Below are positions 1 to 10,785 of a stretch of DNA of 40,972 nucleotides, piece after piece (position 1 is the first letter of the stretch; every line of letters starts with the position of its first letter). The DNA is from Cellvibrionaceae bacterium (GTDB taxonomy: Bacteria; Pseudomonadota; Gammaproteobacteria; Pseudomonadales; Cellvibrionaceae). The DNA is taken from contig JAHQVY010000008.1 of the NCBI GenBank assembly GCA_019634095.1, positions 1 to 40,972 of the forward strand. Reading direction: 5' to 3'. The notes below the pieces were generated by a model, which made no database searches, was not told the origin of the DNA, and saw only the letters and a list, made by a program, of their open reading frames with translations. A program made the translations under genes and the position numbers.

Positions 1-682
1 ACGCGACAAGCTTGCGCTCATGTTTTCGTGCCTTTTACTTAACAAGTCTAGACGGAATAATTAACGGGTTGCCTGAATTTTAGCGCCGAAAATATCACCA
101 TTAACTGCGACAATCGCCGTGGCGCATCGCTGTAAGGACGGAGATGGCATCCTTACTGCGTTCTCGACACAACAGCTAGATAAAGAAAAACCTAGAATGA
201 GCACCTAACCCCGTTTCGAACCCGCTGTGACTATCTGCCAACAAGTTGGTCGCGGGTTGAACCTGGCTTGTCTTTCTATCTGCCAAGCGATTAGTTTAAA
301 CACCGCAACAGGTATGCTTGACTTGTTGCAGATTATCCTAAATTAATCAGTTGGAACTACTGCGGACGCCCAATGAACTGAAATTAAAGCGTTTTTTCAA
401 TTTTGCGGCTGCACCCGCAGAGTGACTGCGAATTTGCCGCAAAAGTTAAAAAATTCACTCTAATTTCAGCCCCTTGAACGCCCTCGCTACGATCCAACTG
501 ATTAACTTAGGATTATCAGCGCATTTATGGGCGGCGATGGCCGAGGCAAGCCCTGCACCCCCAGCTTTTTGCGGCTGTTTCTCAGCTTTAATCGCGCAGG
601 CCCCTTTGAACCGTTTTTTTGGTTGACCGCGGCGCGCGGCTTCGGTATTTTGCCGCGGTGGACTTTGCCCCTGGAGCAAACT
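1..682. other. Gene-free stretch upstream of xseB
   Basis: I find no convincing gene here. Two simple inverted repeats are visible. One is a 7-bp stem at 132-138/150-156 with an 11-nt loop. The other is a 9-bp stem, TTTTGCGGC at 401-409 with its complement at 436-444. Neither is followed by a T-run, so neither looks like a standard terminator. A 74-codon minus-strand reading frame at 455-679 begins with TTG, lacks a ribosome binding site and resembles no family I know, so I do not call it. Confidence 0.6.
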
Positions 683-6786: not shown

Positions 6787-7025
6787 CCAGCTGCGTAGCT
6801 TTAGAGGGAAATCGATACAGCGATTAGTAGGCCGAGGGCTATCTAGTCAAGACAGTAAGCTGACAATGAGTGCAGATTGCGAGTACCAGAGGATTGTGTA
6901 CAGGGCTCAACTGTCTAATTCGACAGCTCATAAGAGCACTGCGCACTCAACACCTTAGTGACAGCTCTATCTACTCTATCTAAAGCCGCACAGCCAAACT
7001 GGAAGCCAAGCAGGCAGCCAACACT

Positions 7026-7697
7026 TCACGTAATATCGCCCTTCAAGCGGTATCCCTCAAAGCGTATATCAATTGATACCGCCTCAGCAGGCTCAGGGTC
7101 GGTATCTACCACCGCCGGCACGGGCGGTGGCGGCTCGACAATCGGTGCGGCGGGAAGCGGCTCTTGCTCGGTGTCGCTTTGCGCCATCTCGCGAATTTCT
7201 TGCCAGCGGCGACGAAAGGCGGGCGAACTGCCAATTTCGTAACCGCTATCGAGTTTCTCCGCATTGCGCTCAATTTCCGACGACAGTTCGGCCCGCAGGC
7301 GGCTTTTTTTATTGGCCTGCTTTAAAGAGCTCTCGTACTGTTGCATTAACTCGCCTAACTGTTGTTTCGATGCATCGCCACTGCCTTCAAGAGCCTCAAT
7401 TTCCCTGCGCAAAACCGCGTTTTCGGTGTCGATACGCTTTTTTTCGGCAACCACGTCTAAATATTTATCGACATTGAGGTTGTAATCGCCAATCAAACGG
7501 TTCTTTTGATTCCGCAGTAAGAAAATTGCCAAACCCGCTGTAGCAAAAACAGCCACAACCGAAATGATTTTCCTAAAACCGCCGGGCAAAAATAATGCGA
7601 GCATGCCCGCACACACCACGGCCATAACCACAATAATCAGACCGCTGGGGCTGAAGAGAACATTGAAAAACGACATTGGGTTAATATGCAGGTCCAT
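7026..7697 (-). CDS. Uncharacterised two-helix membrane protein with coiled coil
   Basis: I do not recognise a family. The 223 residues contain two hydrophobic segments (about 16-33 and 40-60), a long Lys/Glu/Ala-rich coiled-coil-like region (about 72-150) and a proline-rich, acidic tail (about 180-205). It is the last gene of a three-gene unit: its ATG shares one base with the stop of the preceding membrane protein (TAATG), so the two are almost certainly co-translated. With the upstream amidase it could be an inner-membrane partner, spanin-like or a scaffold, but that is inference from context only. Confidence 0.75.
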   Translation of the reverse strand: MDLHINPMSFFNVLFSPSGLIIVVMAVVCAGMLALFLPGGFRKIISVVAVFATAGLAIFLLRNQKNRLIGDYNLNVDKYLDVVAEKKRIDTENAVLRREIEALEGSGDASKQQLGELMQQYESSLKQANKKSRLRAELSSEIERNAEKLDSGYEIGSSPAFRRRWQEIREMAQSDTEQEPLPAAPIVEPPPPVPAVVDTDPEPAEAVSIDIRFEGYRLKGDIT

Positions 7698-8170
7698 TAG
7701 ATATCTTCCTCTTCATCATCGTAATTCGGGTGCTGCAAGGTAGACTGCTGGTTATCCACATAACCCATTGCCGATGCAGCGGACTGCACCCCGGCTACTC
7801 TGCCGCCGCCAGCGCCTTGCTGCGTGGTCATCATTTTCTCTTGTAACTTTCTATGTGCCCGCTGCTCATGGTGGTTGTCGTAGGAAGAGCGCCGCAGGTA
7901 ATAGGTACCGGCAAGGGTAAACACCGAAGAACAAATCCCGAGAATAATCAGCTGCGCATTACTGTTGAAACTTTGCATTAATTCAACGAGGGCATTTGAT
8001 TCCTCCCGAGACAAGTTTTGCCCACTGACCATGGCCAAGCTATTAAGCCCCAACCAAATAACTAGCATGACCAGCAGGGCGAGAATCACCACAACCAACA
8101 TCGTCATAATGAAATCGGGTCGCCCTTTACTGTTATTGAGAAGAAAACTACTGGGTGTTAAATTTGACAT
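7697..8170 (-). CDS. Uncharacterised two-helix small membrane protein
   Basis: I do not recognise a family. The 157-residue protein has two strong hydrophobic segments (about 22-42 and 73-91) separated by a polar loop, a His/Arg-rich stretch, a glycine-rich segment (GAGGGRVAG) and a very acidic tail (DDEEED). A strong ribosome site, GGGGGA, precedes the ATG, and the amidase gene ends 11 nt upstream. Size and topology recall class II holins, but the long hydrophilic tail is unlike most of them. Its function is unknown. Confidence 0.75.
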   Translation of the reverse strand: MSNLTPSSFLLNNSKGRPDFIMTMLVVVILALLVMLVIWLGLNSLAMVSGQNLSREESNALVELMQSFNSNAQLIILGICSSVFTLAGTYYLRRSSYDNHHEQRAHRKLQEKMMTTQQGAGGGRVAGVQSAASAMGYVDNQQSTLQHPNYDDEEEDI

Positions 8171-8181
8171 GACTTTTCCCC

Positions 8182-8763
8182 CTAGAAACCGACGTAATTA
8201 CCGATACCAACGGCGATAGCTTTGCCGATATCTTGTCTAAAATTTGCGCTAAGCGCCTTGGCGCGATCTTCCGGGTTGGTGATAAAACCGACCTCGACCA
8301 ACACCGCAGGCGGCGCAGTGTTGTGAATAAAAGCCAAACGGCGACCGAGCTGCGCGGTGGTTTTATAGCCTCGGCCACGCAATTTAATAATTCCACTTTG
8401 CTCTACCGATTCAGTAATAGCCTTCGCCGCCGACTCACCGCGGGTACTGCCCTCGGCATAAAATACCTCAAACCCCTGCGCTTTTAAGTTGCCTGCAGCA
8501 TTGTAATGCACAGATAACGCGAGGCTGACAGGGTAAACATGATGGGCCTCGTTAATTAAGCCGGCGCGAGAACGCAGGCTGATATCATAATCCCCATCAC
8601 GGGTAAGGAATACACGAAAATCTTGGCTCTGGCCATAGAGGTTGTGCATATACCCATACACCTCTTCACCGGTTAACAAATTCAACTCTTTTTCCACGGC
8701 TGCACCGTGAACAGCCCCAGGCTTACTCCCGCCGTGGCCATAATCTAAGACTAAATTTATCAT
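8182..8763 (-). CDS. N-acetylmuramoyl-L-alanine amidase, Amidase_3 family, no signal peptide
   Basis: Amidase_3 enzymes are zinc hydrolases that cut the bond between N-acetylmuramic acid and L-alanine in peptidoglycan. The 193 residues comprise just the catalytic domain. Zinc ligands are His10 (DYGHGG, where DPGHGG is usual), Glu24 (VEKELNL) and His86 (SVHYNA); the catalytic Glu is 157 (VEVGFITN). No signal peptide, AMIN domain or SPOR domain is present, unlike the housekeeping AmiA/B/C enzymes, so export must depend on a partner. It leads a unit with two small membrane proteins, an arrangement that recalls phage endolysin-holin cassettes. Confidence 0.9.
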   Translation of the reverse strand: MINLVLDYGHGGSKPGAVHGAAVEKELNLLTGEEVYGYMHNLYGQSQDFRVFLTRDGDYDISLRSRAGLINEAHHVYPVSLALSVHYNAAGNLKAQGFEVFYAEGSTRGESAAKAITESVEQSGIIKLRGRGYKTTAQLGRRLAFIHNTAPPAVLVEVGFITNPEDRAKALSANFRQDIGKAIAVGIGNYVGF

Positions 8764-9334
8764 CTACTTTTTACCTGCGAAAATATCAATATTTAGCAAC
8801 GCCAAGCAATTCGCTGCCAGTGCACCACTTTGCGCTAACCCAGCCTCGTTGCCACAGACCCGCCCGTACGCCCTTGCTGTTGAAAAAATCGACTGCCCGG
8901 TGTGTGCATTGAGCACCCGATATTAGTCGAAAAGCGTGCCTCAAGCTACGCTCATCTCGTTTGCGCACCAAAGTCTAAATCTGTCGCTACATTTCAGCAC
9001 GGATTTTCCATTCTAAAGCATTGCTTAAAATAGCGCTTAACAACCTAATCGCCATAGAAGCAAAAAAATCACATTGATCTGCCGATATACTACCCCGAAT
9101 GAAACAAACAATATTTCTTTATTCCAAACCCATTATTCCGAAGACATTATCTCGAAAACAAGGTGAAGCTCGTCCTTACCGGCCCACACCCAAACTCCTG
9201 CTGATACCGGTGCACACAGAGAGTATTTTTTTTCTTTGCACGGTTTCTAGGGGCGAAGCAATATACCACTGCACGCGGCGGCAACGCGCAGAGCCAATCA
9301 TTGAGCGCCGCCACATGGCGCGCAGCAATCGCCG

Positions 9335-9363
9335 TTGTCGACAATCATTAATCCCTTTATAAA
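9335..9363 (+). promoter_or_regulatory. Candidate sigma70 promoter inside a gene-free stretch
   Basis: TTGTCG (9335-9340) and TATAAA (9358-9363) are separated by exactly 17 nt. The predicted start of transcription is near 9370, and no coding frame follows. It may drive a non-coding RNA or the long leader of the gene at 10051. Confidence 0.5.
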
Positions 9364-9367
9364 CTGC

Positions 9368-9610
9368 GGGTAGTGTCGCCAGCAGCCATAGGGGCAGCCG
9401 GCGTGACGCCGGGGCTAAAACTCAACGGCCGCAGAGGGTTAAGCAGCTTGCAAAGCGCTGAGACCTACGCACGAAAAAAGGCCTAGCAATGCCAAGTAAG
9501 GCGATACGCCCGCTAGCTGGTTATAACCTTGTAACGAGAGAGTGCTTACCCAGCAAAGCGACTACCGCTGCTCACCCCTAGGGACCAGCGTGATAGAATC
9601 CGATTTTTTT
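9368..9610 (+). ncRNA. Candidate structured non-coding RNA of unknown class
   Basis: Starting just after the promoter, GGG..GTGTCGCC (9368-9380) can pair with GGCGATAC..CCC (9500-9511). Inside this long-range helix is a tight hairpin, CCGGCG-TGA-CGCCGG (9398-9412). Downstream, CGCTG (9566-9570) pairs with CAGCG (9586-9590) around a nested CCC-CTA-GGG, and a seven-T run lies at 9604-9610. I compared it from memory with tmRNA, RNase P RNA, 6S RNA and 4.5S RNA and found none of their hallmark sequences. The ends and the call itself are inference. Confidence 0.3.
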
Positions 9611-9873
9611 AGAGCAATGGGCATTTGTTCACTGTAAAATGAGCGGCGGATATGACTATTATTTAACCTAGGCATGAGGTGGTTTAAAACAAACCTAAAA
9701 GGGCGTAAAACGGGAACCACTGAGTTTATCCGCCTTAACGGCGGAATGAACCAGCAGCGTAAAAGCCAGCTAAGTGCGTGTAAGGCAAGCCGCTCCTTGT
9801 GACAGAAAAAACGGCGAACCACAGAGCAAAAGCCAGTATCCAAGCAGAAAGAGAGAACACTCTCAGTTTCAAG

Positions 9874-9966
9874 CCCCCAGTTTTAAGCCTTAAACGGCAG
9901 GGTGGCGAACTTTACGCAAACTATTTACTGCGTGCGGGCTGACAACAAAGGGGCTTAAACTGGGGG
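9874..9966. repeat. Long inverted repeat upstream of the DUF-like membrane protein
   Basis: CCCCCAGTTTTAAGCC (9874-9889) is the reverse complement of GGCTTAAACTGGGGG (9952-9966) apart from one extra A. The 62-nt interior contains a further 5-bp stem, ACGCA/TGCGT. It lies about 85 nt before the TTG start at 10051. It could be a leader structure, a small mobile-element remnant or a processing site. Confidence 0.7.
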
Positions 9967-10050
9967 GTATGCTTTCTAAGTTTCCGCTTAGTAAACGACA
10001 ATACTAGAGTAAAAACCATCCTCGCATGGCGCGTTTTTGGAGAGAGATTC

Positions 10051-10785
10051 TTGAGCGAAGAAAAAAAACCCGTAGAACTTGTCGTCGGCAGTTTAATTGT
10101 TAAAAAAAACGCTTTAATTTACGAAAACCAGGCAATACAAATCAACACCTTGACCGCAATTTGGATTGACGACTTAAGCGTAATTAAAAAAAACCCGTTC
10201 CCCAACTTGATAAAGATTGTGGCTCCACTGGCGGGTTCCATCGTTGCTGCGGGTTTGGTGCTCCAAGAACCTATACTCATGGCTGTAGGTATTATAATGG
10301 CTTCAATAGCGATTGCTCGCTACACCAAATATGTGCCAAAGGCTAAAAAACCTCGCTTTGCTTTGGGTATTGAGAAAGCCTCGGGAGAATGCATTTTGTT
10401 TCCCAGCGCCAATAAGGATGCTATCGATAAAGCGGCAAACGCTCTATTCGACTCTATATCTAGCAAAGAAAATCTACATGAAACCTTTGTTTTAAATGTG
10501 AACAAGAAAGTTCCCATGAAAAAGTCGGTGGGCTCAAAAATGTTCAATAAGAAAAAGCCTGCTGCACCGAAATTTTACGCGAAAAAACCCAGCGAAAAAC
10601 TGGTCGAAAATATTGAAACACTGAAGCCCAAACCACCAGAACCAGAGCCGGCACCTGCACCGGCACCCGAACCAGAGCCCGCTGCACCGGCGCCAGCAGA
10701 ACCGGAAACCAAGCAAACAAAACGCAAACAAGCGGCCGATGCGGCAAAGAAGGCGGAAAATTCAAAAGACACAGCCGGAACTTAG
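10051..10785 (+). CDS. Two-helix membrane protein with Pro/Ala-rich tail (DUF6232-like)
   Basis: The 244-residue protein has a short N-terminal segment followed by INTLTAIWIDDLSV, a membrane hairpin (about 52-71 and 74-91), a compact beta/alpha-looking region to about 135, and a Lys-rich then Pro/Glu/Ala-rich C-terminus (about 189-220, repeats of PEPAPAP type). The N-terminal half reminds me of the DUF6232 membrane family, but this is a tentative resemblance. The start is TTG, supported by GGAGAGAG at 10039-10046. It stands alone, convergent with the fructokinase gene. Function unknown. Confidence 0.75.
   Translation: MSEEKKPVELVVGSLIVKKNALIYENQAIQINTLTAIWIDDLSVIKKNPFPNLIKIVAPLAGSIVAAGLVLQEPILMAVGIIMASIAIARYTKYVPKAKKPRFALGIEKASGECILFPSANKDAIDKAANALFDSISSKENLHETFVLNVNKKVPMKKSVGSKMFNKKKPAAPKFYAKKPSEKLVENIETLKPKPPEPEPAPAPAPEPEPAAPAPAEPETKQTKRKQAADAAKKAENSKDTAGT

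Follow-up and report, generated by a model that had tools for sequence, protein, structure and literature searches.

Tracing a signal-less amidase gene and its two downstream neighbours through bacterial genomes, we found that the three genes are a real unit. All 12 loci that carry the middle gene (A) have the amidase gene (AMI) upstream of it and the third gene (B) downstream, and they fall into two phyla; 11 of the 12 were found through A, so the 12/12 count is conditional on A, with AMI and B searches in Calditrichota serving as reverse tests. Because the trio recurs in two distant phyla away from recognisable virus genes, it is probably a bacterial wall-opening or self-lysis device. Whether this chromosomal operon opens the wall in the manner of a phage holin/endolysin cassette is, in our judgement, an evenly balanced question. 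The operon is compact, is conserved in both phyla and encodes two unannotated membrane proteins, and it touches two open questions: by what route signal-less murein hydrolases cross the inner membrane when no phage is involved, and how widely programmed lysis is used for release.

Layout and recurrence of the operon

The window, meaning the whole 40,972-nt stretch analysed here, is the entire contig 8 of a 3.39-Mb MAG in 370 contigs that is 68% complete. The minus-strand gene order is AMI (8763-8182), A (8170-7697) and B (7697-7026), with the following features:

8182 to 8763, minus strand: AMI, signal-less Amidase_3 (N-acetylmuramoyl-L-alanine amidase, PF01520), 193 aa, with an in-frame TAG before its ATG
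7697 to 8170, minus strand: A, two-helix membrane protein, 157 aa, C-terminus DDEEEDI, conserved in 12 loci
7026 to 7697, minus strand: B, 223 aa, with two close hydrophobic segments, a long predicted coiled coil, a Pro-rich linker and a C-terminal GYRL-like motif, conserved in 12 loci
7695 to 7699, minus strand: TAATG stop/start overlap of the A stop (7699-7697) and the B ATG (7697-7695)
7700 to 7714, minus strand: last five codons of A (GAA-GAG-GAA-GAT-ATC), a Shine-Dalgarno-like stretch for B

The original prediction, made from the window alone, gave the span (7026-8763) exactly and the layout correctly, with an 11-nt gap between AMI and A and a 1-nt overlap between A and B, which reads TAATG; all three genes are on the minus strand. 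Neighbours checked against Pfam are a WYL-type regulator, an alpha/beta hydrolase (prolyl-aminopeptidase-like by reading) and a ROK kinase, and reading of the ORFs added tatC, glycogen and ribosomal genes. The further statement that no other phage genes lie nearby also holds on reading the window's ORFs, these three neighbours being Pfam-checked. At 11 loci of 23 other hydrolase-bearing genomes, none of the trio genes occurs within 1.5 kb downstream of the hydrolase gene, and the genes found there vary. By this comparison, the trio appears to have been added at the window site.

Other features of this genome are recorded here as observations. The ~1.3 kb upstream of the operon (8764-10050) hold no convincing gene, and beyond them a plus-strand gene (10051-10785) encodes a 244-aa protein with a Pro/Ala/Glu-rich tail and a weak, below-cut-off match to DUF6232 (7.6e-4). 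A perfect CTGT-N8-ACAG palindrome, which we take to be LexA-box-like, lies at 6911-6926 between the convergent ends of the operon and the hydrolase gene and may be there by chance; LexA-like control of the operon through it was rejected, as it lies downstream and not upstream, where a promoter element would be. Contig 69 of the same MAG carries a separate 475-aa amidase-like frame (E 3.2e-7).

The distribution of the trio is patchy. A search of 120 family members detected A and AMI only in the window's own genome and in Teredinibacter sp. ISS155 (A, E 5.4e-34; AMI, 5.7e-55), where B is present too; a third A row (E 0.0035), a frame with stops, is noise. A 369-genome draw from the class returned only the window's own genome. 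In 244 genomes of the order, the B search yielded, apart from the self-match, four rows at noise level (E 0.003-0.008). Searching genome contigs with A retrieved at least Teredinibacter and three Calditrichota MAGs; as this contig search used two short patterns only, the trio may be spread more widely outside the two phyla than is recorded here. In Calditrichota, the A profile matches 10 of 40 genomes with one copy each, and B, as well as AMI at E<1e-80, is found in the same 10 genomes; in G724, AMI is split across two contigs. An eleventh genome (G725) carries the first 67 AMI residues at a contig end, the operon was not found in the remaining 29 of the 40, and the other four AMI rows are weaker (E 4.2e-24 or above) and belong to frames of 357-912 aa.

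Recurrence outside prophages had been set in advance as the test of a dedicated system, and it was observed: 12 loci in two phyla, with no neighbour read as a phage gene. The trio is therefore not confined to prophages, and both membrane proteins co-occur with the amidase. No phage gene was recognised on reading the neighbours of the loci, ten of these neighbours being checked against Pfam, although some locus contigs measure only 3-8 kb and carry little information on this point. Nor was a cargo gene common to the loci seen among the neighbours read, and no broken frames of AMI, A or B were seen except at contig ends.

Several neighbours are recorded here. In three Calditrichota loci (L015, L016 and L029), dinB lies directly upstream of AMI on the same strand (Pfam check on the L029 copy), ahead of a quartet made up of the trio and a fourth gene, C, hinting at damage-linked expression. 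In two near-identical loci, a 279-aa protein with a hydrophobic N-terminus is encoded upstream of AMI (L034:7539-8378 and L035:4228-5067); its L034 copy has no Pfam family. The Teredinibacter locus has a Zorya-like variant ~1.2 kb from its quartet (L013:588-7478), comprising a 370-aa coil protein and three further proteins. One is MotA-like by reading and has no PADLOC match; PADLOC assigns the second, which is MotB/OmpA-like, to ZorB (9.2e-15) and the third, a helicase of 1424 aa, to PDC-S37 (3.7e-26).

Such neighbours raise the possibility of a phage defence or suicide system, in which infection or damage would lead the membrane pair to release AMI, or AMI would cut wall precursors at the inner face, so that the cell dies ahead of phage release. 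Three observations fit this idea: the scattered distribution, A and AMI having turned up in just 2 of the 120 family members; the Zorya-like MotB/helicase set; and the placement of dinB, a damage-tolerance (translesion) polymerase gene, directly upstream in three loci. However, AMI, A and B have no PADLOC match at E 0.01, the conserved unit includes no sensor gene, and outside Teredinibacter the neighbours read as housekeeping genes and not as defence islands. We consider a defence or suicide function improbable.

The amidase and its membrane partners

AMI matches Amidase_3 (PF01520) with E=1e-35 over residues 5-188, at 123.7 bits against a cut-off of 27. It has His10, Glu24, His86 and Glu157, which from knowledge of the family we take to be the zinc ligands and the catalytic Glu, and all four are invariant in the 11 aligned operon amidases; neither the alignment nor the tree includes the L030 copy, which is truncated where its contig stops. 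The window protein is 34-47% identical to AMI from 10 other operon loci. A hydrophobic export signal is absent from 11 of 11 operon AMI proteins in a mean Kyte-Doolittle scan, where the criterion was a 19-residue segment with a mean of >=1.6. In the window, an overlooked N-terminal signal is ruled out by the in-frame TAG codon directly 5' of the ATG. The initial description of AMI as a bare Amidase_3 domain with its zinc and catalytic residues but no export signal is borne out by the domain match, the four residues, the scan and this TAG. A SAR endolysin was rejected, as AMI has no N-terminal signal-anchor helix or other hydrophobic segment. From its sequence, then, AMI is predicted to be an enzymatically active, signal-less murein hydrolase. 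Its best-scoring solved relative is CwlV (E 1.2e-23), and LytH and AmiC are also among its solved relatives.

An enzyme of this kind could in principle stay in the cytoplasm for murein recycling, trimming imported or precursor fragments with A and B as transporter or sensor. The missing export signal would suit such a task. Against it, known cytoplasmic recycling amidases such as AmpD belong to Amidase_2, and neither A nor B, with roughly two helices apiece, matches a transporter family above cut-off; we give this possibility very little credence indeed.

A has two hydrophobic segments in the window (20-38 and 74-92). The second exceeds the hydrophobicity threshold only in the window and Teredinibacter copies, the 10 Calditrichota copies having the first segment only. 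Conserved features of A are, in order, an NSKGxPDF-like N-terminus, the hydrophobic stretches, a segment rich in RR and, in 12 of 12 loci, a final ED[I/V] at the C-terminus. Charges in the window and Teredinibacter copies suggest that both ends of A would be cytoplasmic. Class II holins have two transmembrane helices with both termini in the cytoplasm, and A is longer than is usual for small holins. The window's A reaches no Pfam or NCBIfam cut-off and has no convincing PHROG; it scores 18.1 bits against MFS_2, below the cut-off of 27. No holin match for A was found among PHROG or Pfam families, the best PHROG rows (E 0.02) not being holins.

B has two hydrophobic segments in the window (19-37 and 43-61), followed by long helices and a Pro-rich tail. 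Its topology is ambiguous, as the short hairpin loop and the stretch that follows are both basic. A five-sequence model of A gave a helical hairpin (mean pLDDT 61.6), and one of B, also from five sequences, gave helices 41-105 and 109-149 at low confidence (58.1). The hydrophobic segments and the B model agree with the early description of two membrane proteins of two helices each, one with a coiled coil and a Pro-rich tail. Structure prediction, proposed at the same stage as a check, supported the helices and, with such low mean pLDDT, supported only those.

The junction between A and B is conserved as well. The two genes overlap by 1 nt (TAATG or TGATG) in 9 of 12 loci, with spacings of +1 nt in L033 and L035 and of 96 nt in L031, and in every locus except L031 (11 of 12) the tail of A contains a GAGGAGG-like stretch 7-9 nt ahead of the B start; AMI-A gaps range from -8 to 218 nt. 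Conservation of ED[I/V] need not indicate a protein docking site, since the same codons double as a ribosome-binding-site-like stretch for B, and the proposal of a docking peptide is weakened by this Shine-Dalgarno-like stretch in 11 of 12 loci. In L031, however, where 96 nt separate A from a B gene that has a ribosome-binding site to itself, A still ends in SEDI, one case favouring a protein-level role for the tail of A. The GYRL-like tail of B, [GD][YFH][RH]L, is found in 12 of 12 loci, including the window, where no C gene follows, and is not accounted for by ribosome-binding-site overlap.

The window's B reaches no Pfam or NCBIfam cut-off and has no convincing PHROG. Some other B proteins have weak NCBIfam matches, to TraP (2.7e-6, 2 of 12 members), to the TC0500 inclusion protein (2.1e-5, 4 of 12) and to the coiled-coil hydrolase PcsB (best 3.3e-5, 4 of 12 loci), all absent for the window's B. 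The best rows against the spanin-like phrog_89 and phrog_312 come from Teredinibacter B (E 1.4e-3 and 1.6e-3), with weaker ones for the other copies, and they rank alongside equally strong coiled-coil matches; Rz-like matches span E 0.001-0.1. We read these weak family matches as probable coiled-coil similarity. Kinship of B with TraP, TC0500, PcsB, SLATT_6, UPF0242 or Rz-like proteins was set aside as probable similarity at the level of coiled coils or hydrophobicity, the Pfam families among them being below cut-off.

The fourth gene, C, follows B in L013, L015, L016, L029, L030 and L033 and comes after an inserted gene in L017 (7 of 12 loci); this insert (L017:2691-3191) encodes 166 aa with hydrophobic stretches by reading, and the C alignment omits the L017 copy, which is truncated because its contig stops there. 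B has no C next to it in the window or in L031, L032 and L035, and the L034 contig ends too early to tell. In the L031 genome (G726), C is unlinked, on another contig, near a methylenetetrahydrofolate reductase (MTHFR) gene as in L016. It was not found in the window's genome, G751 or G725, and G748 and G749 gave weak rows only; with the MAG 68% complete, its absence from the window's genome may reflect incompleteness. C has a signal-peptide-like N-terminus, a coiled coil and a C-terminal hydrophobic helix. Its profile matches EnvC weakly (E 0.05), a designed helix bundle scoring better, and one C protein (P0007) matches PADLOC entries at 8.5e-4 and 1.3e-3 only, over the coil. Judged from sequence, each of A, B and C seems to represent a family without annotation.

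With C in the picture, the operon could also encode a non-lytic wall-remodelling complex. A and B would hold or restrain AMI at the inner membrane, AMI would be passed to the periplasmic wall under control during growth, division or envelope assembly, and C would be its periplasmic activator (EnvC activates AmiA/B). A settled rather than fast-moving setting is suggested by one copy per genome, by dinB in three Calditrichota loci and by MTHFR near C in both G726 and the L016 quartet, and the weak PcsB match of B, the weak EnvC match of C and the presence of LytH and AmiC among solved AMI relatives lean the same way. Yet the two weak matches are only at coiled-coil level, and all 11 AMI proteins scanned lack a hydrophobic export signal, unlike periplasmic amidases of this kind. 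Moreover, C is missing beside B in the four loci named above and was not found in the genomes G000 and G751. The patchy distribution also speaks against such a role, since 29 of the 40 Calditrichota yielded no operon and 118 of the 120 family members neither A nor AMI. We judge wall remodelling unlikely.

Phage and viral relatives of the amidase

Tblastn of B and A against 50,697 phage records at E 1 gave no match, and neither did tblastn of the L015 Calditrichota A against 72,556 plasmid records. Viral-contig searches with B, A and a single AMI returned no relative, whereas the AMI alignment returned 431, of which the best 80 were kept. ORFs at these 80 viral amidase loci include no match to A or C and one row for B (E 0.039); for C they are the whole of the phage and viral evidence, A and B being covered more fully. 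When 152 same-strand TM ORFs beside 70 of the 80 viral amidases were compared with the membrane proteins, the probability reached at most 19.4% against A and 18.9% against B. Phage records matching AMI are at most 35% identical among the 25 matches listed of 121.

We built a tree from 11 operon AMI, the 25 best-scoring of the 80 viral amidases and four of five cellular amidases (L130 left out). The operon AMI form one group (99/95) apart from the 25 viral amidases, and this group splits into a gamma pair (100/98) and nine Calditrichota sequences (99/96). Their nearest sampled neighbours are viral (L036 and L049, support 95/87 and 92/57). With viral rows selected for their similarity and so few cellular sequences, phage ancestry of AMI is a lead only.

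These viral neighbours in the tree make a phage origin of the enzyme plausible, and the whole operon might then be a remnant, or the lysis module, of a prophage lineage missing from databases. Several results oppose this. No phage structural or replication gene was recognised on reading the loci (some neighbours Pfam-checked), the 80 viral loci gave nothing for A or C and the single row for B, the phage records gave nothing for A or B, and no broken AMI, A or B frame was seen apart from contig ends. We rejected a prophage remnant as the main reading on the first of these points together with the missing A and C matches, and regard it as very improbable.

Viral contigs themselves illustrate what an Amidase_3 can do beside membrane proteins. 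L042 has a PHROG holin (9.3e-17) by its Amidase_3, and L049, on reading, places its Amidase_3 gene side by side with genes for a small TM protein and a TM-coil protein, these two without a PHROG; Amidase_3 and TM sets can thus serve as lysis cassettes. Separately, in L071 (6546-6833) and L072 (4734-5021), a two-helix protein directly follows the viral Amidase_3, and its DDSGKVS before helix 1 recalls the NSKGxPDF of A; it has no PHROG and was not among the best alignments to A.

Proposed wall opening compared with known systems

We favour wall opening of the holin/endolysin type since a signal-less AMI needs the membrane to be opened or crossed and a two-helix gene adjoins AMI and overlaps the next gene. 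AMI, lacking a signal peptide, would be synthesised in the cytoplasm as a working murein amidase. Its neighbour A, an inner-membrane protein presumably encoded on the same message, would let or drive AMI across the inner membrane in a holin-like role. B, whose translation would be tied to that of A by the overlapping start, would build or gate the membrane assembly. Where C is present, it might carry this assembly on into the periplasm and perhaps substitute for a spanin. The outcome would be lysis of some cells or local opening of the wall for release. We infer the roles of A, B and C as well as the enzyme activity, the membrane crossing, the lysis, the trigger and the cargo.

The original comparison with an endolysin-holin-spanin cassette stands for the gene layout; the holin and spanin roles found no convincing sequence match. 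A simple lipobox scan of nine operon regions gave three unrelated small ORFs and no shared Rz1-like gene. A stronger proposal is that A, as a new family of two-helix proteins, and the translationally coupled B move folded AMI through the inner membrane on demand as a dedicated machine that does not come from a known phage cassette; we hold this tentatively, as a possibility short of an even chance. With the same reserve, the machine may be a non-phage wall-opening, self-lysis or release system of Calditrichota and the gammaproteobacterial family of Teredinibacter. A release device for phage-tail-like injection systems was also considered and is unsupported as a general partner, the sheath PF04984 being found in 2 of 10 trio and 2 of 30 trio-less Calditrichota (2 of 11 and 2 of 29 with G725 added to the trio genomes).

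In the listed titles and abstract openings of literature on Calditrichota, Teredinibacter, signal-less amidases and domesticated cassettes, we found no description of the operon; the prophage enzyme of PMC10803476 is an Amidase_2.

Several known systems share part of the design. LytH-ActH and the FtsEX-EnvC-amidase complexes likewise place an Amidase_3 under membrane or coiled-coil partners, but those amidases are exported or anchored outside, and no kinship between their partners and A or B is known. CwlC, from Bacillus, is a signal-less bacterial amidase of mother-cell lysis, and CwlV, of the same type, is the best-scoring solved relative of AMI; in contrast to these, AMI has no binding domain, has other gene partners and occurs in diderm hosts. 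Phage Amidase_3 endolysin cassettes (L042, L049, L071) also have an Amidase_3 beside small TM proteins, with a TM-coil protein too in L049, whereas the operon amidases form a separate group (99/95) and alignments of viral neighbours to A and B stay at or below 19.4% and 18.9% probability.

The closest parallel in organisation is type 10 secretion, for which two papers describe signal-less endolysins that depend on a holin and are encoded in clusters outside prophages in Serratia and Yersinia (PMC10847048; PMC9527704). Serratia ChiW/ChiX and Yersinia HolA-PepB-Rz-Rz1 resemble the operon in lying outside prophages and in pairing a murein enzyme that has no signal with small membrane proteins (PMC10847048; PMC9527704). 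A, B and C, however, have no convincing holin or spanin match, and with no recognisable holin or spanin found we do not class the operon as a T10SS. It also differs in its enzyme, an Amidase_3 where the known type 10 secretion systems use other enzyme types, in its gene order (enzyme-A-B-C) and in having no linked cargo or regulator seen. We regard the operon as a variant whose working principle is already known and whose membrane parts appear to be new.
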